From contig CANMSD010000002.1 in the NCBI GenBank assembly GCA_947500645.1, forward strand, positions 372,001-436,000: DNA of 64,000 bases, in the 5' to 3' direction. Both the position numbers and the translations under genes were made by a program. The notes beneath the pieces are model-generated. The model did no database searches, was not told the DNA's origin, and saw only the letters and a program-made list of their open reading frames with translations. How positions within the stretch are numbered: the stretch's first letter is position 1; every line of letters begins with the position of its first letter. Shown here piece by piece: positions 32,240 through 46,293 of this stretch. The DNA comes from an uncultured Erythrobacter sp. (GTDB lineage: Bacteria > Pseudomonadota > Alphaproteobacteria > Sphingomonadales > Sphingomonadaceae).

Positions 32240-32313
32240 CTAAGCCGTGCCCGCCTAATGCACCGGGACGAACCGCGCAATATGAAAAAAGAAACCTATT
32301 TGGCACTTTTTTA

Positions 32314-32341
32314 TTGACATTGTCACGCTCTTTGGTTAGAA
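32314..32341 (+). promoter_or_regulatory. Candidate sigma-70-type promoter of the GTA cluster
   Basis: TTGACA, a 16-base spacer, then TTAGAA, about 125 bases before the first GTA gene and pointing toward it. The -35 is a perfect match and the -10 matches 4 of 6. It is AT-richer than its surroundings. Confidence 0.45.
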
Positions 32342-32376
32342 GAACTCAACATCGCGATAGTGTGAGTCGGGAGCGG

Positions 32377-32396
32377 GGCTGAAACAGAGTTCAGCC
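32377..32396 (+). other. Hairpin in the GTA leader
   Basis: Perfect 7-bp stem GGCTGAA / TTCAGCC with loop ACAGAG, 35 bases after the candidate -10 box and 70 bases before the small terminase start. It has no T-run, so it is more likely a 5' UTR structure than a terminator. Confidence 0.5.
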
Positions 32397-32467: not shown

Positions 32468-32926
32468 ATGGCGGAAATGCCGCGCAAATGCGCAACCAAA
32501 AGCAAACCACGAAAACGTGTCAGTCCACGCTGGCGCGATCGCTTCATCGAAGAACTTGCTCAGTCCTCGAACGTCAGTCGTTCTGCTGATCTTGCAGGAA
32601 TCACGACCAGTGTTGCATATCGCACTCGGACCAACGAGCCGGAATTTGCACGACGCTGGCTAGCGGCGCTTTGGGAAGGATACGAGCACCTGGAATTGGA
32701 AGTCTTGCGGCGCCTGCGAGAAGGCGATCAGCAGGCAGGAGATACATCGAAATACGACTTCGCCAACGCCATCCGGCTTCTCAACGCACACCGTGACAGT
32801 GCCAGCAAGGCTCAAGCAGAGCAAAGAAACGTAAGTGCTGCTGAAATCCGCGCTTCGATCGATCGCAAAGTCGAAGAAATTCGTTCGCGGATTCAGCAGG
32901 AAAAGAGCCGTAAGGCAGGCATCTAG
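32468..32926 (+). CDS. GTA small terminase subunit (gp1-like)
   Basis: DNA-recognition subunit of the packaging motor of the gene transfer agent. The 152-aa protein has a helix-turn-helix-like N-terminus (FIEELAQSSNVSRSADLAGITTSVAYRTRTNEPEFARRW) and a charged C-terminal coiled helix (SIDRKVEEIRSRIQQEKSRK) that would assemble the ring and contact the large subunit. It is the first gene of the GTA cluster. GGAG precedes the ATG. Its stop TAG shares one base with the GTG of terL (TAGTG). Confidence 0.85.
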   Translation: MAEMPRKCATKSKPRKRVSPRWRDRFIEELAQSSNVSRSADLAGITTSVAYRTRTNEPEFARRWLAALWEGYEHLELEVLRRLREGDQQAGDTSKYDFANAIRLLNAHRDSASKAQAEQRNVSAAEIRASIDRKVEEIRSRIQQEKSRKAGI

Positions 32927-34251
32927 TGAAAGAGCCGAACGACTGGCTGGCGGAAGCGCCGGCGGCAGCTCGCGAAGAACTGATCCGCGCTTTGAATGAC
33001 GAGGAGCGTGCAGAATTCGACTATCATTGGCGTATGTTTGCCCGGAAGGCGCAGCTGCCTCCTGAAGGCCAATGGCGAATCTGGCTCATCCTGGCCGGAC
33101 GCGGATTTGGGAAGACTCGTGCCGGGTCCGAGTGGGTGCGTTCAATTGCTGAAAGCAATCCGCAGGCGCGGATCGCCCTGATTTCCGGTTCACTGGCCGA
33201 GGCACGCGCTGTCATGGTTGAAGGTGAAAGTGGAATAATCTCGTGTTGTCCGCCAGAGCGACGGCCCATTTTCGAGCCGTCATTGCGGCGTTTGCGGTTT
33301 CCCAATGGGTCCCAAGCGTTGCTCTACTCGGCGGCAGAACCTGAATTGCTTAGAGGCCCTCAGCATTCGCACGCCTGGTGTGACGAAATTGGCAAGTGGC
33401 CGCTCGCCCATGAACGCGCCACGAGATGTTGGGACAATTTGCTTATGGGCCTTAGGCTTGGAGCAGATCCGCGAGTTGCCGTGACGACGACACCGAAAAG
33501 CGTTCCGCTGGTCATGCGACTGCTCGATCAGGAAGAGTCAGGCGCGACCGCAGTAGCGAGAGGTTCGACATACGATAATTCGGGCAATCTCCCGCAGCGG
33601 TTCCTGGCCGCTATAGAAGATGAGTTCGCCGGAAGCCTACAGGCACGCCAGGAAATTGGCGGTGAGTTGCTGACCGATGTGGAAGGCGCCTTATGGGACC
33701 GTACACTGCTTGAGCGAGCTCGCGAGCGTGCAGATAGGCCTGCTGATTCGAGGATGGTAGTAGCCGTTGATCCACCAAGCTCGGCCAAGGGCGATGCGTG
33801 CGGAATTGTGGTCGTGGCCCTTGGGATTGACGGTATCGGTCGTGTCTTGGCCGATTGCTCGGTCGAGAAAGCCAGCCCAGAAAAATGGGCTAGGCAAGTT
33901 GCCGCTGCTGCGACCGAATGGGGTGCAGACCGCGTGGTCGCAGAAGCCAATCAGGGCGGCGCCATGGTGGAGAGCGTCTTGCGCGCCGCCAGCAGCGATC
34001 TGCCGATCAAGCTGGTTCACGCCAGCCGATCAAAGGTGGCGCGGGCCGAACCCGTCGCTGCGCTATACGAAACTGCAAGAGTGAAGCATTGCGGGCACTT
34101 CCCGCATCTCGAAGATCAATTATGCGGCCTTAAGGCAGGCGGCGAATATGTCGGCCCAGGTCGCAGCCCGGACCGAGCCGACGCGCTTGTTTGGGCACTT
34201 ACTGAACTGATGCTCGGTCGTGCACGCAGACCGCGCGTGCTGCCCATCTGA
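32926..34251 (+). CDS. GTA large terminase subunit (gp2)
   Basis: Packaging ATPase and nuclease that fills heads with host DNA fragments. The 441-aa protein shows Walker A ILAGRGFGKTRAGSEW, Walker B-like HAWCDEIGKW, and the nuclease domain with MVVAVDPPSSAKGDACGIVVV, VVAEANQGG and the late acidic RSPDRADALVWAL. Start is GTG, overlapping the small-subunit stop. All expected catalytic acids are present, so it appears functional. Confidence 0.93.
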   Translation: MKEPNDWLAEAPAAAREELIRALNDEERAEFDYHWRMFARKAQLPPEGQWRIWLILAGRGFGKTRAGSEWVRSIAESNPQARIALISGSLAEARAVMVEGESGIISCCPPERRPIFEPSLRRLRFPNGSQALLYSAAEPELLRGPQHSHAWCDEIGKWPLAHERATRCWDNLLMGLRLGADPRVAVTTTPKSVPLVMRLLDQEESGATAVARGSTYDNSGNLPQRFLAAIEDEFAGSLQARQEIGGELLTDVEGALWDRTLLERARERADRPADSRMVVAVDPPSSAKGDACGIVVVALGIDGIGRVLADCSVEKASPEKWARQVAAAATEWGADRVVAEANQGGAMVESVLRAASSDLPIKLVHASRSKVARAEPVAALYETARVKHCGHFPHLEDQLCGLKAGGEYVGPGRSPDRADALVWALTELMLGRARRPRVLPI

Positions 34252-34268
34252 ATCCAAAAGGAATTTTC

Positions 34269-35426
34269 ATGGCATTGCTAGAAACGATCGCCGCTGCCTT
34301 CAAAGGCAGCGCGACTGCTCGTGTGCCGCTCGCACCGAGCTTCATCTCCACCTGGACTCCGGCCTATGAGGCGTCCGGTAACTCGCGAAACTACGACTAT
34401 CAAAGGGCCATTCGCGAAGGTTTTCTGGCGAACCCCATCGCTCAGCGAGCTGTCAGAATCGTCGCAGAGGGAGTGGGACAATCGCCGATCTCATCAAACG
34501 ATGATGAACTCAAAAATTTGGTAACCGCAACGAGTGCCGGCCAATCACTAGTCGAGACAATCACTGCCCATGTCGTGCTTCACGGCAACAGCTTCGTTCA
34601 AATCATCAAGGACGGCGCTGGTAGTCCTGTGGAATTGTTCGCGCTGCGCCCTGACCGCGTAAAAATCCTCTCGGGGTCTGATGGCTGGCCCTGCGCCTAT
34701 GAATATAGAGCGGGCGATCACCCGTCGCGTATTGCAGCAGAAGACGAAAATGGATGGCCCAGCGTCATCCATATCAAAGCGATGCATCCAGTCGAAGATC
34801 ACTACGGGGCAGGCTCGCTTGCTGCTGCACATGAAGCAATTGCCATTCACAATGCAGCAGCTGAGTGGAACCGCACGCTTCTGGAGAATGCAGCTCGTCC
34901 TTCCGGTGCGTTGGTTTACGATGCTGGCGAAGGAGCGGGCCTCTCGGCGGATCAATTCGATCGCCTCAAGGGCGAGCTCGCGACGGCATTTTCGGGCTCG
35001 ATCAATGCCGGACGCCCAATGCTCCTAGACGGCGGCCTGAAGTGGCAGAGCATGGCACTCTCTCCAGCCGACATGGATTTCGCCACACTAAAGAGTTCTG
35101 CGGCGAGAGACATAGCACTCGCCTTCGGCGTCCCACCGATGCTCTTGGGCCTGCCCGGCGACAACACATACTCAAACTATCGCGAAGCCAATCGCGCGCT
35201 GTGGCGACTGACCCTTCTTCCTCTCGCCGAGAAACTGTTCTCGGCCTTGAGCGAAGGGCTTTCGCCGTGGTTCGCAGAGGGTGAACTCAGCGTCGACTTG
35301 GATCGAATTCCAGCTTTGTCGGAAGATCGCGAACGTCTTTGGAAGCAGGTGTCAGATGCGGAATTCCTGACGCGAGCCGAGAAGCGCGACATGCTCGGCC
35401 TCCCCCCTGAGGAGACAGCACGATGA
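34269..35426 (+). CDS. GTA portal protein (HK97 family, gp3)
   Basis: Dodecameric portal at the head vertex through which DNA enters. The 385-aa protein has the HK97 portal pattern: ANPIAQRAVRIVAEGVGQ, TAHVVLHGNSFVQIIKDGAGSPVELFALRPDRV, and GVPPMLLGLPGDNTYSNYREANRALWRLTLLPLAEKLFSAL. AAGGA precedes the ATG. Its stop overlaps the next start (ATGA). Length is normal. Confidence 0.93.
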   Translation: MALLETIAAAFKGSATARVPLAPSFISTWTPAYEASGNSRNYDYQRAIREGFLANPIAQRAVRIVAEGVGQSPISSNDDELKNLVTATSAGQSLVETITAHVVLHGNSFVQIIKDGAGSPVELFALRPDRVKILSGSDGWPCAYEYRAGDHPSRIAAEDENGWPSVIHIKAMHPVEDHYGAGSLAAAHEAIAIHNAAAEWNRTLLENAARPSGALVYDAGEGAGLSADQFDRLKGELATAFSGSINAGRPMLLDGGLKWQSMALSPADMDFATLKSSAARDIALAFGVPPMLLGLPGDNTYSNYREANRALWRLTLLPLAEKLFSALSEGLSPWFAEGELSVDLDRIPALSEDRERLWKQVSDAEFLTRAEKRDMLGLPPEETAR

Positions 35427-35731
35427 GCCGTGAAGACATGCTTGCCAGCCTTATGGTTCAGGCAAATGAGGAGGGTGCAGACATCGTCACCTTGCGCGCA
35501 ATGATTGAGGAGGCAAGCGAGCTCGCCGCCGAGAAGGTTTTGGATCGACTTGGCCTAGGTGACGCTAGGGCCGAGGGTGATCTCGGAGAATTGCGCGAGC
35601 TCCTCAAAGCATGGCGAGACGCCAAGACAAGCGCTTGGAAAGCCTTTATCGGTTGGGTCATCCGCGCAGCGCTCGCGCTGATTCTGATCGGCATCGCCGT
35701 TCGTCTTGGCGCGTCGGATCTATTGTCATGA
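35423..35731 (+). CDS. Small membrane protein between portal and protease (gp3.5 position)
   Basis: A 102-aa protein: a soluble, acidic N-terminal part (LRAMIEEASELAAEKVLDRLGLGD) followed by an amphipathic helix and one transmembrane helix (VIRAALALILIGIAVRLGA). I believe it belongs to DUF6127, known from sphingomonad GTA clusters, but this is from memory. It is coupled at both ends (ATGA with the portal stop, ATGA with the protease start), so it is a real structural-cluster gene. A membrane helix in a particle gene suggests assembly at the membrane or a role before packaging. Confidence 0.75.
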   Translation: MSREDMLASLMVQANEEGADIVTLRAMIEEASELAAEKVLDRLGLGDARAEGDLGELRELLKAWRDAKTSAWKAFIGWVIRAALALILIGIAVRLGASDLLS

Positions 35732-36132
35732 CTAAGCAAACCATCCGATTTGCCGGATATGCAGGTCTATTCGATATCCCAGATGCAGCGCAGGATACGA
35801 TCCGACGCGGCGCGTTTGAGCAGACCGTCGCGAGCCGTAGCGAACCCTTGCCGCTTCTCTGGCAGCATCGTCCCGATCAGAAGATCGGAGTGATCGAGGA
35901 GATATCGGAGGATAATCGCGGCCTGCGCGTCATCGCCCGGATCGACGCTAATAGCTCCCGCGGTGCAAAGATGCTCAAAGATGGCACGGTCGACGGCTTG
36001 AGCTTTGGCTACCGGGCGCGCGAATATCGAAACTCAGACAAAGGCCGCGAGCTGCTTGCTATCGATCTGTTCGAAGTGAGCCTCGTCACACACCCACTTC
36101 AACACGGCGCGCGAGTGCACTTCGTCGCCTAG
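35728..36132 (+). CDS. GTA prohead protease (HK97 family, gp4)
   Basis: Serine protease that matures the capsid shell. The internal start MTKQTIRFAGYAGLF gives 134 aa and overlaps the preceding stop by 4 bp; the track start lies inside the previous gene. Motifs: PLPLLWQHRPDQKIGVIEEI (His), DGLSFGYRARE (catalytic Ser) and IDLFEVSLVTHPL. It is shorter than many phage proteases but complete in its core. A terminator-shaped hairpin follows within 30 bases of the stop. Confidence 0.9.
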   Translation: MTKQTIRFAGYAGLFDIPDAAQDTIRRGAFEQTVASRSEPLPLLWQHRPDQKIGVIEEISEDNRGLRVIARIDANSSRGAKMLKDGTVDGLSFGYRAREYRNSDKGRELLAIDLFEVSLVTHPLQHGARVHFVA

Positions 36133-36158
36133 CCAACCCAAAACCCAATTTCCCAAAT

Positions 36159-36183
36159 GGCCGCCAGCGGGGCGGTCTTTTTT
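36159..36183 (+). terminator. Terminator-shaped hairpin inside the GTA cluster, before the capsid gene
   Basis: Stem GGCCGCC / GGCGGTC (7 bp, one G-U), 5-base loop, then six T. It meets the form of an intrinsic terminator but lies in the middle of an otherwise coupled operon. It may attenuate or uncouple capsid transcription. Confidence 0.6.
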
Positions 36184-36210
36184 ATGCTCAACAGAAAGGT
36201 TGCATGCCCC

Positions 36211-37359
36211 ATGGAAAGCACTCCCGTCCCTACTCCCAAACCAGCCGAGCAGCTTGAAGAAAGCTTCGATATTGTCGCGCGCCAAGATCAAGCTGAAGCT
36301 GAAATCAAAGGCCTTCGCGGCGACGTTGACGAAGTAAAAGCTCGTCTCGACAAGGTTTCCCGCGCAGCGTCGCGTCCAGCAATTGGCGGTGGAACCGCAT
36401 CAAGCGAAGTCAAAGGCTTTGTCGACGGCTATCTGCGCCGTGGCAATGAAAGCGAAATCAAATCGATCAGCGGCGCTGTACCGTCAGATGGTGGCTACGC
36501 AGTACCGCGTGAAATCGACGCGCTCATCGCCAGCGAACTCGCGGAGATCAGTCCAATTCGCAGCATCGCCCAGGTGGTCCAGACCGGCAGCGCAGGTTAT
36601 CGCAAGCTGGTATCGACCGGCGGCACCGCGTCGGGCTGGGTTAGCGAAACCGCTGCACGCCCTGAAACTGATGCGCCAGAATTCGCCGAGATCGCGCCAC
36701 CTACGGGAGATCTTTACGCCAATCCAGCGGCCAGCCAATCGATGCTGGATGATGCCGGTTTCAATCTCGAGGCTTGGCTCTCCAGCGAAATTGCGAGCGA
36801 ATTTGCTCGTGCAGAAGGTGCAGCCTTCGTTTCTGGCACAGGCACGGATCAGCCTGAGGGCTTCCTAACGGCGCCCAATGGCACCGGTGATGATGGCGTT
36901 CGCGCGTTCGGCACGCTCCAATATGTCGGATCGGGCGATGCCAATGGCTTCGACACTGCTCCCGACGCGAAGCTGATCGACCTCATTCACACTATGAAGT
37001 CGGGTCACCGCCAAGGTGCTAGCTTCGTGATGAACTCGGCCACTTTAGCCGAAGTGCGCAAGCTCAAAACCGCTGATGGTGCGTTTCTGTGGCAACCAGG
37101 AATGATCGAAGGTCAGCCTGATCGCCTGCTGGGCTATCCAGTGGTCGAGGCTGAAGACATGCCAGACATTGCATCAGGCACATTCCCGATCGCTTTCGGC
37201 AACTTCCGCCACGGCTATCTGATCGCCGAACGCAGCGCCACTCAAGTCCTGCGCGATCCGTTCACAAACAAGCCGTTCGTCCACTTCTACGCCACCAAAC
37301 GAGTCGGCGGCAAAGTGCTCGACAGCAACGCGATCAAACTCCTGAAGATCGAGGCCTGA
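36211..37359 (+). CDS. GTA major capsid protein (HK97 fold, gp5)
   Basis: Shell protein of the GTA head. Start chosen at MESTPVPTPKPAEQ (382 aa), with AAAGG 12 bases upstream; the Met at 36184, directly after the T-run, is possible but has a poorer site. The N-terminal delta domain is a coiled coil (QAEAEIKGLRGDVDEVKARLDKV) that is normally removed by the prohead protease. The HK97 core begins near GGYAVPREIDALIASEL and includes RPETDAPEFAEIAPP and YATKRVGGKVLDSNAIKLLKI. It is bracketed by two strong hairpins. Confidence 0.93.
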   Translation: MESTPVPTPKPAEQLEESFDIVARQDQAEAEIKGLRGDVDEVKARLDKVSRAASRPAIGGGTASSEVKGFVDGYLRRGNESEIKSISGAVPSDGGYAVPREIDALIASELAEISPIRSIAQVVQTGSAGYRKLVSTGGTASGWVSETAARPETDAPEFAEIAPPTGDLYANPAASQSMLDDAGFNLEAWLSSEIASEFARAEGAAFVSGTGTDQPEGFLTAPNGTGDDGVRAFGTLQYVGSGDANGFDTAPDAKLIDLIHTMKSGHRQGASFVMNSATLAEVRKLKTADGAFLWQPGMIEGQPDRLLGYPVVEAEDMPDIASGTFPIAFGNFRHGYLIAERSATQVLRDPFTNKPFVHFYATKRVGGKVLDSNAIKLLKIEA

Positions 37360-37409
37360 TCCTCTCCCGGCGAGGTTGAGTTAGCCCCTGACTCCCTCGT
37401 CGGCACCCC

Positions 37410-37461
37410 GCACCCGCGCCGCGCTAGGCCATCCTCCCGCCTGATGCAGCGGCGCGGGTGC
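37410..37461. repeat. Perfect 13-bp inverted repeat after the capsid gene
   Basis: GCACCCGCGCCGC and GCGGCGCGGGTGC, separated by 26 bases, in the only sizeable gap of the GTA cluster. As RNA it would form a very stable stem. There is no following T-run, so it is more likely an mRNA 3'-end stabiliser, pause or factor-dependent terminator than an intrinsic one. Confidence 0.65.
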
Positions 37462-37492
37462 ACCCCTTGTTCTTGATTATTGGGAGACCGCA

Positions 37493-38038
37493 ATGCAGCG
37501 GACTATTGTTATTGCGGCAAACCTTGGTGGAGCCGCACTTGATGATCTGAAGGCTTGGCTAGGCATCACCCGTCCCAATGAGGATAAGATGCTCGTCGAC
37601 CTGCTGCGCACAAGCTCAGCCATGTGCGAAGCCTTCATCGGCCAAAGTCCGGTTGAAGTGACCTTGGAAGAGAGTCTGCCGGTAGAGGCTGCTCGCTCCC
37701 GAATGGCTTCGCGCCCAGTTCAGACGATCATGTCGATCGAAGCGCTTAGCGACGATGGCACCCGAAGCACAGTAGACACTGACCGGTACAGCATCGAAGT
37801 TGATGGATCTGGTTCCGCTTGGGTAACGATCAAGTCATCGCTCGACGCGCGCGCCATCATTGTGCGAGCAACCTGCGGATTGGCACAAGATTGGAACGAC
37901 GTTCCCTCATCACTACGCCATGGGATCATACGTCTTGCAGCCTATTATTATCGTGATCGCGACCATGAAGGCACACTTGAACCGCCAGCGAGCGTAAGTG
38001 CCCTGTGGCGCCCATGGCGCGACATTAGTCTCACATGA
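37493..38038 (+). CDS. GTA head-tail connector protein (gp6)
   Basis: Adaptor ring below the portal. The 181-aa protein matches the phage gp6-like connector family: LDDLKAWLGITRPNEDKMLVDLLRTSSAMCEAFIGQ at the N-terminus, then the SRPVQTIMSIEAL beta region, and IRLAAYYYRDRDHEG. GGGAG precedes the ATG, after the 13-bp inverted-repeat gap, so it may begin a new segment of the transcript. Its stop overlaps the next start (ATGA). Confidence 0.88.
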   Translation: MQRTIVIAANLGGAALDDLKAWLGITRPNEDKMLVDLLRTSSAMCEAFIGQSPVEVTLEESLPVEAARSRMASRPVQTIMSIEALSDDGTRSTVDTDRYSIEVDGSGSAWVTIKSSLDARAIIVRATCGLAQDWNDVPSSLRHGIIRLAAYYYRDRDHEGTLEPPASVSALWRPWRDISLT

Positions 38039-38202
38039 TCGCTCGCCCTCAGAACCCCGCCAGCGACCTCATCCAGGGCCTCAGTTCTCGAGCACGCATC
38101 AAGGGCGAGCGGCGAGCAATTGGCTTGCGCGAACAAAAGCGAGCGAACGGGCATTTTTGGCGATCGGCAAACGCACTCTGGCCAGAACTTACGGTGAATT
38201 GA
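38035..38202 (+). CDS. Short ORF in the gp7 position of the GTA cluster
   Basis: A 55-aa basic ORF (MIARPQNPASDLIQGL...ANALWPELTVN) missing from the track because of its size. It overlaps the gp6 stop by 4 bp (ATGA) and ends 4 bp before the next start. That is the spacing of a translated gene. In Rhodobacter this slot holds gp7, a head-tail joining protein about twice as long. Whether this is a shrunken gp7 or a linker ORF that only couples translation cannot be decided by reading. Confidence 0.5.
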   Translation: MIARPQNPASDLIQGLSSRARIKGERRAIGLREQKRANGHFWRSANALWPELTVN

Positions 38203-38206
38203 CTCT

Positions 38207-38593
38207 ATGGAAAATCTCTTGCGCACCGCGCTCATCGAGTGGCTGCGAAACGATCCGGCTCTGGGCAGCATAAACGCGATCGAGGAGGAAAGCCCTCTTG
38301 GTTCTAGTCAGCCCTGGCTTGGAATTGCCGCAAGCGGCTCGACAGATTGGGGCACCAAGGACAGGCGCGGCCGCGAAGTTCGCATCGCTCTCGAATTGGA
38401 AAGCCGAACCGATGATCCTGCCGCCGATGCCGCATTAGTTGAAACGATCGAGCAGCGAATCTCCAGCCTGCCGCGCGAACAGTCTGGCTTCGAGGTAGCC
38501 GCCTCACGCTTTCTTCGCGCGCGAAGCGAACGGCGTCCAAACAACCTGCGCGGCACATTGCTCGAATATCGATTTCGCCTCTTAAACCTCTGA
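38207..38593 (+). CDS. GTA DUF3168 tail-completion protein (gp8)
   Basis: Tail terminator or completion protein linking tail tube to head. The 128-aa protein shows the DUF3168 pattern: LRTALIEWLRNDPALGS, PWLGIAASGSTDWGTKDRRGREVRIALELESR and a final RGTLLEYRFRLL strand. It begins 4 bp after the short ORF and is followed 13 bp later by the tail tube gene. Confidence 0.88.
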   Translation: MENLLRTALIEWLRNDPALGSINAIEEESPLGSSQPWLGIAASGSTDWGTKDRRGREVRIALELESRTDDPAADAALVETIEQRISSLPREQSGFEVAASRFLRARSERRPNNLRGTLLEYRFRLLNL

Positions 38594-38606
38594 CGGAGTA
38601 ACCTTC

Positions 38607-39014
38607 ATGCCTGCACAAAATGGCTCTGCATTTCTGCTCAAGATCGGCGACGGTGGATCGCCTCTAACCTACGATACAGTCGCCGGTCTCAGGACCACAC
38701 AAATGTCCATCAACGGGGATACGGTCGTCGTCACTCACAAGGATTCGGGCGGTTGGCGCGATCTTCTTTCAGGCGCTGGAACACGGTCCGTGTCGGTTAG
38801 CGCGGCCGGGATATTCCTAGGCAGTACAGCAGAAGCCTCGGTGCGTGCTCATGCTCTGGCTGGAACCATCGATGACTATGAACTGTCCTTTGAGGACGGT
38901 GAAAAGCTGCGTGGACGATTTCTTGTCCAACGTCTGGACTATTCCGGCGATTTCAATGGTGAGCGCAACTATACGATGCAGCTCGAAAGCTCAGGACCGG
39001 TAGTGCCCGCATGA
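38607..39014 (+). CDS. GTA major tail tube protein (gp9)
   Basis: Polymerises into the tail tube. The 135-aa protein matches the TP901-1-like major tail family: LLKIGDGGSPLTYDTVAGLRTTQMSINGDTVVVTHKDSGGWRDLLSGAGTRSVSVSAAGIF and GRFLVQRLDYSGDFNGERNYTMQLESSG. Length is typical for GTA. Its stop overlaps the next start (ATGA). Confidence 0.9.
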   Translation: MPAQNGSAFLLKIGDGGSPLTYDTVAGLRTTQMSINGDTVVVTHKDSGGWRDLLSGAGTRSVSVSAAGIFLGSTAEASVRAHALAGTIDDYELSFEDGEKLRGRFLVQRLDYSGDFNGERNYTMQLESSGPVVPA

Positions 39015-39325
39015 GCGCGACCGCCAACTCGTTGAGGGGCGAGGCCGAAATAGTCATCGACGGCAGACCATTTGTTCTACGTCCGAGTTTCGAAGCCCTG
39101 GTTCTAGCGGAGAAAGAACTCGGTTCGCTTTTTGCACTGGTCGAGAGAGCGTCCGAGGGCGCGCTAACAATTTCGGAAATGACGGGCCTGGTTTGGCATT
39201 GCCTTCCCGATGACAGGCGGCCTCCTCGTGAAGAGGTGGGGCGGAGCATTCTTTCGATCGGCCTGCTTGAGGCCGCGAAGCCTGTCAGGTCGATTTTGGC
39301 GCAAGTCCTGAAAGGGCAAAAGTGA
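39011..39325 (+). CDS. GTA gp10 tail assembly chaperone-like protein
   Basis: A 104-aa protein of the GTA gp10 family (GEAEIVIDGRPFVLRPSFEALVLAEKELG). Together with the following small gene it takes the place of the phage tail-assembly chaperone pair located between tail tube and tape measure genes. Coupled on both sides by 4-bp overlaps (ATGA, GTGA). Here the two products are separate genes rather than a programmed frameshift. Confidence 0.85.
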   Translation: MSATANSLRGEAEIVIDGRPFVLRPSFEALVLAEKELGSLFALVERASEGALTISEMTGLVWHCLPDDRRPPREEVGRSILSIGLLEAAKPVRSILAQVLKGQK

Positions 39326-39519
39326 CCCAGCAATTCCGGGAAAGCATCCCGGAACTCTGCGGCATTGCCTCAGCCTTCTTGCGTTGGTCCCCGACTGAAT
39401 TCTGGCAGGCCACACCAGAAGAGCTGGCCATGGCGCTCCACAGCCCAAACTCAGATGCAACGGCATCGCCCACGCGCGAGCAGATCGCACAGATGATGGA
39501 AGATGATCGTCATGGATGA
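39322..39519 (+). CDS. GTA phage tail assembly chaperone, small (gp10.1)
   Basis: A 65-aa protein with the conserved core CGIASAFLRWSPTEFWQATPEELAMAL, recognised as the small rcc01693-type tail chaperone. It starts with GTG, overlapping the gp10 stop. It overlaps the tape measure start by 8 bp if that gene begins at 39512. Confidence 0.85.
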   Translation: MTQQFRESIPELCGIASAFLRWSPTEFWQATPEELAMALHSPNSDATASPTREQIAQMMEDDRHG

Positions 39520-40081
39520 CAATATTGAAGAACTCGTCGTCGACGTGCGCGCCACAACCGATGGCTTCACCAGCGATCTTGAGAGCATGCGAGGCGCACT
39601 AGACACGTCTCTGCTCGATGGGTTCGAAAAGGCCGGTAACGTGCTCGAGCGAGGGCTATTATCTGCCTTACGCAATGGCAGCCTCGGTTTCGATGACCTC
39701 AAGAAGACAGCGCTAAGCGTGCTCGATCAAATTGCTTCCCACGCGATCAAAGCCGGGATCGGTTCGCTGTTTGGCGGCTCCTCGTCCGGGTTTGGTGACA
39801 TTGTCGGACAATCACTCGGCGCATTGCTCGGCCTGCCTGGCCGCGCGACTGGCGGCCCCGTGAGTCCGGGAAGCAGCTATTTGGTCGGCGAACGCGGCCC
39901 GGAAGTGTTCGTTCCGACCAGCTCAGGACGGATCGAACCCAATGGCAGCGACTCACAATCTCGCGATGTCCGGGTTGCCATCCAGGTGGCATCGCCGCGC
40001 GGGACCTCGGCGCCAGTCGCTATGCGCCGTTCATCACGGCAAGTCGCCAGCGCCGTTCGGCGTGCACTTCAACAAACATAA
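39512..40081 (+). CDS. GTA tape measure protein (gp11)
   Basis: Sets tail length and occupies the tail lumen. At 189 aa it is very short, as expected for the short GTA tail. The helical N-terminal part (ATTDGFTSDLESMRGALDTSLLDGFEKAG) is followed by a glycine-rich hydrophobic segment (IKAGIGSLFGGSSSGFGDIVGQSLGALLGLPGRATGGPV) and the C-terminal LVGERGPEVFVPTSSGRIEP motif seen in tape measure proteins. I chose the second Met (MDDNIEELVV) for its better spacing from GGAAG; the track start is three codons earlier. Confidence 0.85.
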   Translation: MDDNIEELVVDVRATTDGFTSDLESMRGALDTSLLDGFEKAGNVLERGLLSALRNGSLGFDDLKKTALSVLDQIASHAIKAGIGSLFGGSSSGFGDIVGQSLGALLGLPGRATGGPVSPGSSYLVGERGPEVFVPTSSGRIEPNGSDSQSRDVRVAIQVASPRGTSAPVAMRRSSRQVASAVRRALQQT

Positions 40082-40093
40082 AGGGCGAGCACA

Positions 40094-42418
40094 ATGGCAT
40101 TCTGGTTGGCACGCGAGCGGCGCGGGCAGGAATCGAGCTATCTCCAACGGTTCGACCCGCGGTTCTGGACGATTGATTTTCCCCGTCCTGCGATGGGATC
40201 GATCGTCACCACGTCGGCTGATAGCTTCAAAGTGGACGTCGAACTGCATCATGAAGGTGAGTTGGTCGGACTGATCTGGGACAGTGTCAATGCGTTCGAT
40301 CACCCCTTGCTCGCGTACGAGACAAGCCGCGATTACTCTCACACGACCCTCAGTTTCCGTTGGCAGTCCAGCGGGGTGGCGACGCTGGACCAGGCCAATG
40401 GCCCAACTCTTACGATCGAGGGCCGGGACGCGTCAGGCCAGCCGAGAACTTGGTATGTCAGACTTTGGAACTACGCCAACGGCTCACCAACGAATGCGAT
40501 CATTACTCTGCCGTTTTCCAACCTCGAAAGCGGCTGGGTCTTGCCTGGTGAACAAGTATGGCCGTCCGATATCGACCGAATGTTCATTTCGATCGCCGCG
40601 CCAAACTTCGTTTCTCGAAGCAGTGAACCACTTGCCTCTCGTCTGAATGGAAGCGTTACCGTTTCAGGCATCGCTTGCGACGGAAAGAATTCGATGCTCG
40701 AATTGGGCGACATTCGACTGCCGCCCCATCAAGAGCGAATGGCGACCGCGTATGACGACGCCTACAATCAGACACCTGCACGCCTTCTTCGGAATATCGT
40801 TGGCCTAGGGTATCGAACCGAGATCTTGCATTATGTCGGGATGAGTCACTTCATGCAGCTTGAAGCTGATGGAGGCGGCGAACTGAAAGTGATCGATGGC
40901 GGGCCGCTTAGTGTGCCTGCAGAGATATGGCACGAGAGCTTCTTCGAACATTGCAGCAAGAACGGCTTCGAAGCGATTTCATCAATCTCATACGAGTTAT
41001 TCGACGCGTATTGCCCGGAGGCCTGGAAGCAGCGCACCGCGAGCGGTGCGCAAGCGCTTACTGGCTGGGTGCCACCTTCCACATTGCTTTCACCGGCCAA
41101 CGCCGACGCGATGGCATGGCTGCAAGCGAGCGCAGTCAATTTCATCGAACTTATGCAAGACGCGCAACTGCCCGTCCGATTCCAGATCGGGGAACCCTGG
41201 TGGTGGATCACGCCAGCGGGCGAGATATGCCTTTATGATGATGCCGCAAGGACAGAATTTGGCGGTAGTCCACCGACGATCTCCGATGTCCGGGCCCCTC
41301 TGAATGACAGTCAAAAGGCACTGCTTGATGAAGCCGGTGCATTGCTTGCCCAATCCACTGCAGACTTGAGCCAAGCTGTACGCAATGCAGCAACCGGCAG
41401 CGCGGAGATCTTGCTACTCGCGTTCACGCCGACAATTCTCGATGCGGAAACTCCCGAGCTCTATCGAGCAAACCTGCCCATTGGCTGGGCTCATCCCGCC
41501 TTCGACCGGTTGCAACTGGAGGATTATGACTGGTTGACCACTGGCGCTGACGCCGATCGCCGCCGAGCCTATGCCTTGGTCGATACAAGGTTGGGATACC
41601 CCGTTGACCAGCAAGACTATCTATCAGGCTTCGTCCTGCTCGAGACAAATGCCGAGGTGATGTGGCCCCTAATCGACATGGGGCTCGATGAAGCAAAAGA
41701 GCGTGGCGTCGAACGCCGGTTCGTCTGGGCCCTGCCGCAGGTCGCTCGCGATGGATACACACGCCTCCCCAAAAACCACGAGGAACCCATGCAATCATTT
41801 GATGATGTTCTATACCCGTTTGCCCTCGGGCGAGACACGGCGGTCGCACCGGAATTCTCCACGTCAGTTGCGGTCATGGCCTCCGGCCACGAACGGCGGA
41901 ATTCTCTTTGGAGCGATGCCCGAATTCATTTCGATGTCGGACCAGGTATTCGCTCGGAAAGTGAACTGGCAGAACTGATTGCGTTCTTCCGGGCGCGCCG
42001 TGGAGCTGCTCGAGGGTTCAGAATATCTGACCCGTTCGACAACAGTTCGAATGGCATGACGGGCAGTCCAGGAACTTCAGATCAGCTGATTGGCATGGGT
42101 GATGGGCTCAAAGCAGACTTCCAACTCGTGAAGACCTACGGCACTGGCGATGACCAACAGAAACGCATTATCACCAGACCACGCCCAGAGACGGTTAAGA
42201 TCAGCGTTGGAGACTACGAAAGCACTGACTGGACTCTAAGCGAAAAGGGCGTCGTACAGTTTGCGCAAGCCCCTGCAGCTGGAGATGAAGTGCGCGCTGG
42301 CTTTCTGTTCGATGTACCCGTCCGTTTCGCAGACGATCGCATAGACGTCTCAGCTGTCAATTTCGAAGCCGGTGAAGCGCCCAGTATTTCGCTGATCGAA
42401 ATTCGCGAGGCATCGTAG
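40094..42418 (+). CDS. GTA DUF2460 distal tail protein (gp12) fused to a large N-terminal region
   Basis: The C-terminal ~209 residues (from Met566, MQSFDDVLYPFALGRD) make a complete DUF2460 distal tail protein: MASGHERRNSLW, LIAFFRARRGAARGFRISDPFDN and RIITRPRPETVKI. The preceding ~565 residues are extra compared with Rhodobacter gp12. They contain a beta-rich part (residues ~1-200) and a region with IWHESFFEHCSKNGFEAISSISYELFDAYCPEAW and RFQIGEPWWWI that looks like a glycoside-hydrolase-type TIM barrel, perhaps the non-contractile tail sheath-like group. AAGGGCGAG precedes the first ATG. A Shine-Dalgarno-like GAGGA also precedes the internal Met566. Confidence 0.85.
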   Translation: MAFWLARERRGQESSYLQRFDPRFWTIDFPRPAMGSIVTTSADSFKVDVELHHEGELVGLIWDSVNAFDHPLLAYETSRDYSHTTLSFRWQSSGVATLDQANGPTLTIEGRDASGQPRTWYVRLWNYANGSPTNAIITLPFSNLESGWVLPGEQVWPSDIDRMFISIAAPNFVSRSSEPLASRLNGSVTVSGIACDGKNSMLELGDIRLPPHQERMATAYDDAYNQTPARLLRNIVGLGYRTEILHYVGMSHFMQLEADGGGELKVIDGGPLSVPAEIWHESFFEHCSKNGFEAISSISYELFDAYCPEAWKQRTASGAQALTGWVPPSTLLSPANADAMAWLQASAVNFIELMQDAQLPVRFQIGEPWWWITPAGEICLYDDAARTEFGGSPPTISDVRAPLNDSQKALLDEAGALLAQSTADLSQAVRNAATGSAEILLLAFTPTILDAETPELYRANLPIGWAHPAFDRLQLEDYDWLTTGADADRRRAYALVDTRLGYPVDQQDYLSGFVLLETNAEVMWPLIDMGLDEAKERGVERRFVWALPQVARDGYTRLPKNHEEPMQSFDDVLYPFALGRDTAVAPEFSTSVAVMASGHERRNSLWSDARIHFDVGPGIRSESELAELIAFFRARRGAARGFRISDPFDNSSNGMTGSPGTSDQLIGMGDGLKADFQLVKTYGTGDDQQKRIITRPRPETVKISVGDYESTDWTLSEKGVVQFAQAPAAGDEVRAGFLFDVPVRFADDRIDVSAVNFEAGEAPSISLIEIREAS

Positions 42419-43227
42419 TGCGTGTCTTTTTCGACCGAGAGCTGGACAATGTAGCCACATTTTGGCGCGTGTTTCGGCGTGACGGTGTCACGCTCGGCTT
42501 CACCAGCCATGATCGCGACTTGTACTTCTCTGGCATCGTACACCAATCGGCACCAGGAATGGTGCCGTCCGCGATCCGGCGCACAATAAATGTAGATGAT
42601 GATGACGCTGAGGTCGAAGGTGCGCTAAGCCATGATTCAATTCGAGCCGACGAGCTTGCGACAGGTCTCTACGACGCAGCATCGATAGAAATCGGAGCGG
42701 TGGATTGGGAAGCGCTCGATCACCATGTTTTCTACAATGGAAAACTCGGCACGATTGAAGACGACAACCACAGTTTTTCAGCCCAATTGAAGTCAGCAAA
42801 AGCAATTCTGGAAGAAGATCTGGTACCGCGGACAAGCCCGACCTGCCGGGCAGAGTTCTGTGGCAAGGGATGCTCTCTATCGGCTGCGACGTTTACCTCG
42901 CTTCGATCGGTGTCAGCGCTAGATCTTGATGCCAACTCAGTGCAATTTCCCGGCATCACCATGGATGACTTCATCGATGGCCAGCTACGTTTTCTGGATG
43001 GCCCTCAAACGGGCCTCACCTTCGGGATTGTGGCCAGTGGCGCAGAGGGACTGACACTTGATCGCCCCCTCGTCGCTGGGACCGCAGTCGGTACAATGGT
43101 AGAGCTACGAGAAGGCTGCGATCATACATTTGCCTCGTGCCAAGGTCGTTTCGGCAATGCCGAGAACTTTCGCGGTGAGCCGTTCTTGCCCGGCAATGAC
43201 CTTCTTGCTCGTTACGGCAAGTCATAG
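42418..43227 (+). CDS. GTA baseplate hub protein (DUF2163, gp13)
   Basis: Hub of the tail tip. The 269-aa protein has the DUF2163 N-terminal part (DGVTLGFTSHDRDLYFSGIVHQSAPGMVPSAI) and a BR0599-type C-terminus (REGCDHTFASCQGRFGNAENFRGEPFLPGNDLL). Cysteines occur in two groups, TCRAEFCGKGC and GCDHTFASC. These resemble the iron-sulfur-type ligands of lambda-gpL-like hub proteins; that role here is an inference. GTG start shares one base with the previous stop (TAGTG). Confidence 0.9.
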   Translation: MRVFFDRELDNVATFWRVFRRDGVTLGFTSHDRDLYFSGIVHQSAPGMVPSAIRRTINVDDDDAEVEGALSHDSIRADELATGLYDAASIEIGAVDWEALDHHVFYNGKLGTIEDDNHSFSAQLKSAKAILEEDLVPRTSPTCRAEFCGKGCSLSAATFTSLRSVSALDLDANSVQFPGITMDDFIDGQLRFLDGPQTGLTFGIVASGAEGLTLDRPLVAGTAVGTMVELREGCDHTFASCQGRFGNAENFRGEPFLPGNDLLARYGKS

Positions 43228-43230
43228 ATA

Positions 43231-43650
43231 GTGAAAAGGGACGTTGAGCTGCTGGTAGCAGCGGCGACAAGTTTGATCGGCACACCCTTTCGACTTCATG
43301 GGCGCGATCCTAGCTCGGGCGTTGACTGTGTTGGAATGCTGGACTGGTGCTTGCGCGAGATCGGCCAACGGCCATCACTGCCGCGCGGGTATCGCTTACG
43401 CAATTCAAGCGTTGATATGTGGTTTGAGTGCGCGAAATCTTGCGGTTTGCGGCCTGTCGATGGCGCAATCCGTGTGGGGGACATAATTCTCGTGTCGCCG
43501 TCGCCCGGCCAATTCCATTTGATGATCGCTGAGGCGAGCGACACTTTCATTCACGCACATGCCGGGCTGAAGAAAGTGGTCAGGGAGAGGGGCCCCTTGG
43601 CTTCAGGGCCAACCAAGCACTGGCGCCTAGCACCCGGATTTCAGGACTAG
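43231..43650 (+). CDS. GTA NlpC/P60-type cell wall peptidase (gp14)
   Basis: Tail-associated peptidase that would open the recipient peptidoglycan. The 139-aa protein keeps the catalytic Cys in SSGVDCVGMLDW and the His in GQFHLMIAEASDTFIHAHAG. Length is usual for this GTA gene. Start is GTG, three bases after the hub stop. The megatron-like gene starts 5 bp downstream. Confidence 0.9.
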   Translation: MKRDVELLVAAATSLIGTPFRLHGRDPSSGVDCVGMLDWCLREIGQRPSLPRGYRLRNSSVDMWFECAKSCGLRPVDGAIRVGDIILVSPSPGQFHLMIAEASDTFIHAHAGLKKVVRERGPLASGPTKHWRLAPGFQD

Positions 43651-43655
43651 AACAA

Positions 43656-45827
43656 ATGGCAACCATTATTTTGACGGCCGTCGGATCAGCTCTCGGCGGG
43701 CCTATCGGTAGCACAATTGGTGCAATCATCGGACAGCAGGTCGACCAAGCGATATTTGGTAGCGGAACACGGGAGGGGCCGAGGCTAAAAGAGCTATCGG
43801 TGACGACGTCCAGTTACGGCCAGCCGATGGCGCGAGTATTCGGACGAATGCGTGTGCCAGGTACGATCATTTGGTCGACTGACCTTATTGAAAGCTCTGA
43901 GAAAAGTGGTGGGGGAAAGGGAAAGCCATCGACAAAGACCTACAGCTATTCCGCATCATTCGCCGTCGCCCTTAGCAGTTCGCCCATCTCATCTCTGGGA
44001 AGAATTTGGGCCGACGGTGAGCTTCTTAGAGGTGCTGCCGGCGACTTGAAGGCAGAGGGGGGACTCCGCATTTACAATGGGCGTGGGGATGATCCCGTAG
44101 ACCCGCTCGTTGCAGCCGATAAAGGTGGCAACGCTCTGGCATTTCGCGATTGCGCATACGTCGTCTTCGAAAATCTTCAGCTGGCCGATTTCGGCAATCG
44201 GATTCCGGCCCTTACTTTCGAAATCATGGGCGAGGACAATGCTTCCGTTCATCTCGCGGATGTAGTTCCGAGCGCAGATCATTCGAGTACAGCCTCTTCA
44301 CTACCACACTTGCGAGGCTTCGCGGACGAAGGAGGCCCGTTATCGTCAACCTTGTCCGTGATCGGGCAGGTATTTCCGATCGTCTGCGCTACGGACGCCA
44401 GTGATCTGCGCGTCGCTCAGATTGAGAATGCCAGCGCTGACGTGACCGCACTGCCAGAGAAGCTGGTTGATAGGGAACAGGAGGAGAAGGAGCATCGCCG
44501 AGTTGAGAGGGTCGGCAAAGAACCACTCGCCATGCGATATTACGATGAGAGCCGAGACTATCAACCTGGTGTTCAGCGCGCGATCGGCGGTCGTTCGAAT
44601 GGACGCGAAAGAATACTGGATATGCCAGGCACTCTTCTAGCAAACGGCGCGCGGGCGATTGCCAATGAAACGGCCCAACGCGCAAGGTGGTACCAGGAGC
44701 AAGTTTCATGGCGAATGGCTGAGCTTGATCCAATGGTCAAACCAGGCGAGATTGTCCAAATCCCCGGCAAGCTAGGGAAATGGCTAGTCCGGAGATGGGA
44801 ATGGCTTGATCGCGGAGTGGAATTGGACCTCGAGCGGATTCCGCCAGAATTCAACAACACACCGCTTGAAGAACTGGCTTTTGATAACGCACCACAAGAT
44901 CTACTTCCAGGCTCGACCATACTGAACGTATTCGAGGTCCCACCTGACCTTGCTGCATCCCAATCGGATCCGATCATTCTCGCGGCAACTTCTTCCGAAA
45001 ATTCTGCATGGCGCGGTGCGGCTCTCTATGTCGAACAGGGTCAAGGACTTATTCCAATTGCTTCATCAAACCGCTTGCGCTCAATCACGGGCTACCTCGC
45101 TCAAGACTTAGCGGGTTCCTCATCGACATATTTGCAGACCCAGGCCTCGCTCTTGGTGCAACTGCCCGCTCACGACCTCACGTTCACAGAAACAGATATC
45201 TCAGGCCTCGCGCTTGGCGCGAACAGGCTCTTGGTTGGCGCTGAAGTGTTGCAATTTCTTGAGGCTGAGCCGCTAGGTGGCGGCTTGTGGAGGCTTAGCG
45301 GGCTGCTACGCGGGCGCGGTGGAACTGAAAATACAGCAATCGAAGGTCACGTCGCCGGCACTTCAGTGGCTCTGATTGATGAGCGCCTGACCGTGCTGGA
45401 CGCCTCGCTGGTTCAATCGAACGCTGCAACTCGCATTGGTGCGATCGGACTTGGCGACATCGATCCAGTTTTCGCAAGTCTCCAAAATGCTGGCATTTCT
45501 AGACGCCCGTTGTGTCCAGTCCATCCTCGAGTTCTTGAAGCACCAGATGGCACTTGGGAATTCTGTTGGACGAGGCGCGCGCGCGGCCAATGGCTATGGG
45601 AAGATGATGTCGATGTCCCGCTGGTAGAGGAAGTGGAATCGTATGTGATCGGTTACGGGCCGATCGAAGAGCCCTTCGCGACTTGGTCAGTTGCGACAAC
45701 ACAGATCGCGCTTTCCGAAGCTGAGCGAAACGCATTGCTTGCCAACTATGGCTCCGGCGACCTGTGGGTCAAGCAAGTCGGAACCTTTGCAAATTCGCCA
45801 GCGACCTTGATCGCACAGATTACGTAA
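43656..45827 (+). CDS. GTA megatron-like tail tip protein (gp15, short form)
   Basis: Large tail-tip protein for host contact and DNA exit. The N-terminus MATIILTAVGSALGGPIGSTIGAIIGQQVDQAIF and SYGQPMARVFGRMRVPGTIIWSTDL are typical. A phage-tail_3-like middle (QRARWYQEQVSWRMAELDPMVKPGEIVQIPGKLGKWLVRRWEW) and the fibre-binding C-terminal region follow. At 723 aa it is roughly 550-600 residues shorter than Rhodobacter gp15, and I see no TIM-barrel segment between the N-terminal and middle parts. Confidence 0.9.
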   Translation: MATIILTAVGSALGGPIGSTIGAIIGQQVDQAIFGSGTREGPRLKELSVTTSSYGQPMARVFGRMRVPGTIIWSTDLIESSEKSGGGKGKPSTKTYSYSASFAVALSSSPISSLGRIWADGELLRGAAGDLKAEGGLRIYNGRGDDPVDPLVAADKGGNALAFRDCAYVVFENLQLADFGNRIPALTFEIMGEDNASVHLADVVPSADHSSTASSLPHLRGFADEGGPLSSTLSVIGQVFPIVCATDASDLRVAQIENASADVTALPEKLVDREQEEKEHRRVERVGKEPLAMRYYDESRDYQPGVQRAIGGRSNGRERILDMPGTLLANGARAIANETAQRARWYQEQVSWRMAELDPMVKPGEIVQIPGKLGKWLVRRWEWLDRGVELDLERIPPEFNNTPLEELAFDNAPQDLLPGSTILNVFEVPPDLAASQSDPIILAATSSENSAWRGAALYVEQGQGLIPIASSNRLRSITGYLAQDLAGSSSTYLQTQASLLVQLPAHDLTFTETDISGLALGANRLLVGAEVLQFLEAEPLGGGLWRLSGLLRGRGGTENTAIEGHVAGTSVALIDERLTVLDASLVQSNAATRIGAIGLGDIDPVFASLQNAGISRRPLCPVHPRVLEAPDGTWEFCWTRRARGQWLWEDDVDVPLVEEVESYVIGYGPIEEPFATWSVATTQIALSEAERNALLANYGSGDLWVKQVGTFANSPATLIAQIT

Positions 45828-45843
45828 ACGCTAAGGAAGCATC

Positions 45844-46293
45844 ATGCCCGCACCAACCGACTTTCCATCAAGCACCTCGAACTTTTCTCTGCCATTGCTC
45901 TTCGCAGGACAATCGCAAAAAGAGTTCTTTGTGAACGAAGCTATCGCTTTGATCGACGCCCACCTTCATCGGACTGTAGTTTCTTCGCAGCCAACACCGC
46001 CAGCAATCCCCAACGAAGGTGAAGCATATCGCGTGACCAGTGGCGTCGACGATTGGTCCGGGCAAGACGATACCATTGCCGTGTTTATAGGAGGGACCTG
46101 GCGCTTCCAGTCACCGGTTTCTGGTATGACGATCTTTGACCGAAACGCAGGCCAGTTCCTGCACTTTTCAACGACATGGTCTTCGGCTGCTGAGCCAGCG
46201 TTGCCGCAAGGGGGGGCAGTGGTCGACTCAGAGGCGAGGACCGCAATCGAAGCGTTGATCCAAGCGCTCAAAGTTGTCGGAATTCTGATCTGA
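45844..46293 (+). CDS. GTA-associated DUF2793 protein
   Basis: A 149-aa protein recognised as DUF2793: STSNFSLPLLFAGQSQKEFFVNEAIALIDAHLHRTV and PNEGEAYRVTSGVDDWSGQDDTIAVFIGGTWRFQSPVSGMTIFD. In tailed phages and GTAs this domain occurs in tail fibre or adsorption proteins near the end of the tail module. AAGGA precedes the ATG, 16 bp after the megatron-like gene. It is the last gene of the cluster. Confidence 0.87.
   Translation: MPAPTDFPSSTSNFSLPLLFAGQSQKEFFVNEAIALIDAHLHRTVVSSQPTPPAIPNEGEAYRVTSGVDDWSGQDDTIAVFIGGTWRFQSPVSGMTIFDRNAGQFLHFSTTWSSAAEPALPQGGAVVDSEARTAIEALIQALKVVGILI

Follow-up and report, generated by a model that had tools for sequence, protein, structure and literature searches.

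How gene transfer agents (GTAs), virus-like particles that carry DNA, stay silent is a central question, since GTA production kills the producing cell. The question arises here at a short GC-rich hairpin and a run of T placed in front of a GTA capsid gene. The window, i.e., the whole 64,000-nucleotide stretch of Erythrobacter sp. DNA that was analysed, carries on its + strand a GTA head-tail cluster of about 13.8 kb extending from a terS-like ORF to the tail genes (32468–46293; coordinates follow the window numbering throughout). A first-pass annotation had noted the hairpin as having the shape of an intrinsic terminator which, if active, would cut transcription ahead of the most abundant structural protein, and had proposed two ways around it: regulated read-through or a promoter of the capsid gene's own. 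Does the site terminate, and by what route would the polymerase reach the capsid gene?

The gap between the protease and capsid genes

Gene names were assigned from family models and synteny. The prohead protease gene (35728–36132, + strand; ATG at 35728; TIGR01543, 2.3e-23) lies 5' of the hairpin and ends with the stop codon at 36130–36132. It is followed, after an intergenic region of 78 nt, by the HK97-type major capsid gene (36211–37359, + strand; TIGR01554, 1.4e-110), whose start is conserved. The longest capsid ORF opens at the ATG at 36157 and overlaps the hairpin. Judging from the sequences, translation almost certainly begins at 36211 and not at 36157, because the ribosome-binding site AGAAAGG (approximately 36194–36200, + strand), itself conserved and situated in an unstructured stretch, and a conserved ATGGA mark this position. 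The hairpin as capsid coding sequence, as an ORF start at 36157 would have it, was ruled out: the loops in relatives measure 4, 5, 6 and 7 nt, lengths that are not all multiples of three, and the spacing varies by single bases. Over 36130–36159 the protease and capsid genes share one frame, in which a lone TAG is followed by 24 nt to the next in-frame ATG; this shared frame is probably a coincidence.

The hairpin (36159–36177, + strand) consists of a 7-bp stem, GGCCGCC/GGCGGTC, with arms at 36159–36165 and 36171–36177, six G-C pairs and one G-U pair, and a 5-nt loop AGCGG (36166–36170). A tract of six T follows directly (36178–36183, + strand). The stem and T-run of the first-pass annotation were thus confirmed and exactly placed at 36159–36183, and the site has both the GC-rich stem with a short loop and the U-tract directly after the stem that characterize intrinsic (Rho-independent) terminators. 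The stem begins 26 nt after the protease stop and ends 33 nt before the capsid ATG.

The fold by itself is unremarkable (MFE −13.3 kcal/mol over 36145–36195; z −0.53), and a loose terminator scan of 30–49 kb returned 19 sites against 18.6 in shuffles, which is the chance level. With a strict definition (dG ≤ −8, compact stem, at least 5 T in 7), two sites were found on the + strand of the 13.8-kb cluster. The pre-capsid hairpin is one of them and stands alone on that strand of the cluster in combining dG ≤ −12 with T6, a class that appeared once in 60 cluster shuffles; when the 78-nt intergenic region was shuffled 2000 times, 21 of the shuffles had a strict site of any kind. Taken by itself, the window provides weak, suggestive evidence above chance. 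Of this stem type, 456 kb of the home genome contain a single strict case, and the hairpin pattern has two matches in the whole 3.38-Mb genome and 0–3 matches per genome across the genus, which rules out a generic genomic terminator. Rfam, searched in gathering and E-value modes, gave no match.

Conservation of the hairpin in related loci

Related capsid loci were gathered by protein searches and direct fetches. A strict terminator was found within 100 nt upstream of the capsid start in 56 of 91 distinct near loci and was absent from the other 35, and the loci share descent, so that these counts are not independent events. The background rate of strict sites on the same strand elsewhere in the clusters (529 kb) is about 1% per 100 nt. 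When more distant family members were added, the strict terminator was present in 77 of 154 loci. The related clusters show a second, small peak of strict terminators just 3' of the capsid gene; a trade-off between terminators before and after this gene was unsupported, both being present in 11 loci.

Among the rows of the capsid tree belonging to the window's clade, the hairpin is present in 30 of 32 loci and the strict T-tract in 27 of 32. The two members without the hairpin are L009 and L103, and the T-tract is decayed behind an existing hairpin in L065, L070 (E. tepidarius) and L087 (E. cryptus). Two of these last three are thermophiles, judging from species names only. Either the demands on termination may differ in these loci, or the stem may have a further role. 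Hairpin presence switches 18 times on the 90-row capsid tree; together with the near loci that lack a strict site, this means that the terminator is dispensable and its loss common. It is not essential to every GTA, as many relatives do without it. A class-wide GTA feature was also ruled out, since a comparable strict site was found in one of 27 loci from other alphaproteobacterial families.

The placement and the composition of the site are informative as well. In most loci the 3' end of the stem lies 28–33 nt upstream of the ATG, and its distance from the capsid start varies less (sd 11 nt) than the distance of the stem start from the protease stop (sd 44). The clade alignment conserves the arms, the T-tract and the ribosome site with the start codon only, and the loop, spacer and flank are not conserved. 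Across 51 hairpins picked by the arm pattern, where arm conservation is partly circular, positions T1–T5 are kept at 1.4–2.0 bits, the spacer before the stem is mostly at 0.1–0.5, and 39 distinct loop sequences occur. A TGCC-like string often follows the T-tract (36184–36188 in the window; TTTTTTATGCC and TTTTTCATGCC in relatives), even with different stems.

The first-pass annotation had named stem conservation in related clusters as a check and compensatory changes in relatives as a further sign of function. The former is borne out by the clade counts, as is the terminator shape by the strict sites of the near loci. The latter holds in part: the stem hardly varies within the window's clade and shows no covariation there, whereas four loci of the wider set have AGCCGCC/GGCGGCT, in which both members of the outer pair are changed, and far relatives carry different stems ahead of the same kind of T-tract, e.g., GGCCCCGTCGCCCAGCGGCGGGGCC-TTCTTTT and GGGCCTGTCTCTGGCAACAGAGGCGGGCCT-TTTTTGT.

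A functionless product of chance or repeat debris is scarcely credible as an explanation. The chance-level loose scan and the low fold z value agree with it, as do the unrelated repeats that fill the protease–capsid spacer in some relatives, but the strict sites in the near loci, the information content of T1–T5, the retention along the capsid tree and the conservation in the clade alignment all oppose it. On these comparisons the hairpin is real; the related sequences, not the window alone, settle the matter.

Structures on both sides of the capsid gene

Local structure was profiled from −2.7 kb to +1.8 kb, and folding stood out clearly as unusual at the two capsid flanks only, with mean z values of −1.6 before the gene and −2.3 and −2.2 after it. 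Two hairpins lie downstream. D1 (37367–37403, + strand) stands directly 3' of the capsid stop and has no T-tract; D2 (37410–37461, + strand) has 13-bp arms at 37410–37422 and 37449–37461 and a poor T-tract. Both covary: nine pairs show double changes, the covariation score is 0.273 against 0.151 in shuffles, double-change cells number 54 against 19.7, and 95.1% of cells are paired against 34–49% when the pairing is slid. They are mostly without a U-tract. A covariance model of D1/D2 had one match in the home genome, and in the searched loci its matches fell on the capsid 3' side. Under a fast genome filter the model was found in 3 of 121 family genomes, yet a direct search recovered it in most clade loci, and absence in the genome scan is therefore no evidence. 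No match to D1/D2 was found in Rfam, and the tandem pair is a candidate for a new RNA element in GTA clusters of the Erythrobacter type.

Escherichia coli hairpins without a U-tract shield upstream cistrons from 3'–5' exonucleases (PMC5927463), and the puf operon is the classic alphaproteobacterial example of a stabilising hairpin (PMC6238624). Like the stabilising hairpins between cistrons of the puf, malE and papBA mRNAs (PMC5927463, PMC6238624), D1 and D2 directly follow the most-needed gene, are stable and are free of a U-tract; with their conserved pairing they have the form of the puf/malE type. By this resemblance they probably stabilise the capsid mRNA.

The main rival to termination is 5' stabilisation, because the capsid gene also has these two covarying hairpins lacking T-tracts downstream. 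The pre-capsid hairpin would then be a papBA-like 5' protector of a processed capsid mRNA, D1/D2 would be its puf/malE-like 3' protectors, and differential decay would lift capsid over its neighbours. The confinement of unusual structure to the capsid flanks, the strong covariation of D1/D2, the closer tie of the hairpin to the capsid start than to the protease stop, and the relatives with thermophile names that retain the stem and lose the T-tract all speak for this explanation. It leaves unexplained, however, the conservation of T1–T5 behind the upstream stem and the swapped stems with retained T-tracts in far relatives. A U-tract is required for termination and not for known mRNA-protecting hairpins (PMC5927463); the pre-capsid hairpin has a conserved one, unlike the puf, malE and papBA elements. 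Protection of the mRNA from both sides is on balance an unlikely explanation. Termination is favoured because the T-tract is conserved, and the site quite probably terminates in vivo, as far as conservation can tell.

The GTA promoter and a candidate antiterminator

If the site terminates, capsid transcription has to be accounted for. The other proposal of the first-pass annotation, that the upstream transcript ends at the terminator and the capsid gene has a private promoter, has nothing in its favour beyond that annotation's own logic. The stem and the ATG are just 33 nt apart, no sigma-70-like match was found on the + strand over 30–49 kb, no synonymous-site conservation peak occurs at the protease 3' end, and the clade alignment contains no conserved block between the protease stop and the hairpin. 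The private promoter is thus unsupported and very improbable. A plain leaky terminator, whose unregulated read-through would set a fixed ratio of packaging to capsid and tail genes or which would end a separate upstream transcript, suits the shape and position of a simple intercistronic terminator. It would, however, reduce the most-needed protein (145 copies per RcGTA particle), and no promoter is visible downstream; it appears improbable, if less so than the private promoter. Regulated read-through is favoured because the demand for capsid is high and partial termination otherwise makes little sense.

Transcription of the cluster has a recognizable origin. The sequence 5' of terS in the window is AACCTATTTGGCACTTTTTTATTGACATTGTCACGCTCTTTGGTTAGAAGAACTCAACATCGCGATAG. 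It contains an operator-like AACCTATTTGGCACTTT (32293–32309, + strand), one of two copies in the genome, and the GTA cluster promoter (32314–32342, + strand) with −35 TTGACA, a conserved 17-nt spacer and −10 TAGAAG. A conserved start of the transcribed leader (AACATCGCGATA...; 32346–32375, + strand) and a leader hairpin GGCTGAA/TTCAGCC with a poor T-tract (32377–32396, + strand) follow. Relatives have the same layout of operator-like AACC-N5-GG, TTGACA, 17-nt spacer, −10 and leader start, often with a T-tailed hairpin. Several carry a full terminator at the position of the leader hairpin, an attenuator-like arrangement between promoter and first gene (seen among L264–L293): of the 39 leaders compared, 10 have a strict T-rich tail and 17 a tail with four T or more. 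The window's own leader hairpin has a weak tail, and the pre-capsid site is therefore its only strong intrinsic terminator.

With up to two mismatches allowed, 128 of 201 family genomes contain the promoter pattern TTGACATYGTVACRCTSTTNRG, most often in a single copy, and the reversed control was almost empty. In all of the 3.38-Mb genome just two matches to the operator pattern exist: one belongs to the GTA promoter, and the other, on a different contig, lies in the intergenic region separating a DUF6456 gene from an HTH gene that diverges from it. AACC-N5-GG motifs are present at 40 of 43 GTA promoters and in 24 of 30 regions upstream of DUF6456 loci.

GafA homologues carry the DUF6456 annotation (PMC9638019); of the alphaproteobacterial genomes that bear a GTA, 94% were reported to contain gafA homologues (PMC9765227). 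The DUF6456 gene of this genome (L212:1405–1887, + strand; PF20057, E 4.4e-40, 138 bits) qualifies as a GafA/GafZ homologue. It encodes a protein of 161 aa with DUF6456 as the sole Pfam domain, which by inference is GafZ-like. Divergent from it lies the HTH repressor gene (L212:717–1313, − strand), with the AACC-N5-GG operator between the two, and a homologue of the repressor adjoins the DUF6456 gene in 30 of 30 DUF6456 loci. The Caulobacter repressor family RogA combines an N-terminal HTH with a C-terminal LexA/cI-like domain; the repressor here contains HTH_3 (1.7e-9), and Pfam gave no S24 match in its C-terminal half. In several distant family members the DUF6456 and capsid genes occur on one contig, roughly 4–12 kb apart.

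A precedent exists in Caulobacter crescentus, where experiments support GafZ as an antiterminator that carries transcription past terminators within the GTA cluster (PMC11150451). Its binding site on the GTA promoter lies between −35 and −10; the protein joins RNA polymerase with NusA/G/E and reads through both terGTA and E. coli rrnB T1 (PMC11150451). The present locus resembles the terGTA/GafYZ system (Tran and Le 2024, PMC11150451) in several respects. Its GTA cluster contains a terminator, the genome encodes a DUF6456 protein of GafA type, a repressor gene is linked to this GafZ-type gene, and the conserved stretch between −35 and −10 of the promoter is a candidate counterpart of the Caulobacter binding element. 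The differences are equally clear. terGTA follows the first gene and is built of three 150-bp direct repeats that contain imperfect inverted repeats, whereas a compact hairpin with T6 stands before the capsid gene here; repeats of the terGTA type would have no room after the terminase, since portal begins at 34269, close behind the TerL end at 34251. The strongly conserved promoter spacer differs in sequence from the Caulobacter palindrome GCGCCCG-CTGGCGC, and the operator differs from that of Caulobacter and is found at both promoters. Caulobacter has GafY; no GafY-like protein with DnaA domain IV was found in this genome, where the sole PF08299 match is a long frame fitting DnaA, and GafY may be present in a diverged form.

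Lambda Q and AlpA are examples of promoter-loaded processive antitermination. The likeness of the GTA cluster to them concerns anatomy alone: a promoter spacer element, a conserved leader start and terminators downstream. No description of the pre-capsid terminator site was found in the open-access literature. The principle of GTA antitermination is known from Caulobacter, and the site, anatomy and circuit described here appear new.

With this precedent, the DUF6456 gene and the conserved promoter and spacer, the regulated read-through proposed in the first-pass annotation fits. The explanation to which we lean from sequence comparison, with confidence slightly above even, is an intrinsic terminator, conserved and internal to the GTA operon, that is passed by means of a GafZ/DUF6456-type antiterminator loaded at the single GTA promoter; bypass of the pre-capsid site by DUF6456-dependent antitermination, considered as a separate claim, is held about as firmly. 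Polymerases without the antiterminator, from leaky or host-derived transcription, would stop at the hairpin before the costly capsid and tail genes. With the GTA on, polymerase would start from the one conserved GTA promoter, located near 32.31 kb, and be modified there by the GafZ-like DUF6456 protein. So modified, it would pass the pre-capsid terminator and any leader terminator and transcribe the whole cluster. By analogy, the DUF6456 protein may act here as GafZ does in Caulobacter, and the conserved promoter spacer would be where it loads. It is plausible that the terminator serves as a switch between silent and productive GTA states.

More tentatively, at somewhat less than even confidence, a two-gate circuit of Sphingomonad/Erythrobacter type, unlike that of Caulobacter, may be proposed. 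A divergent HTH repressor and a stand-alone DUF6456 antiterminator would share the operator AACC-N5-GGTT with the GTA promoter, and polymerase would have to pass the leader and/or pre-capsid terminator. The capsid message would then be stabilised by the lineage-specific covarying double hairpin. Capsid, rather than the whole operon, would be gated.

Antitermination in a GTA cluster has been demonstrated in one organism so far. The pre-capsid terminator belongs to another large group, is compact, conserved and easily mutated, and is accompanied by a candidate antiterminator, promoter, operator and repressor, so that whether GTA antitermination is general can be tested directly. The conserved RNA structures that frame the capsid gene are a possible way to make far more capsid than tail from one operon.
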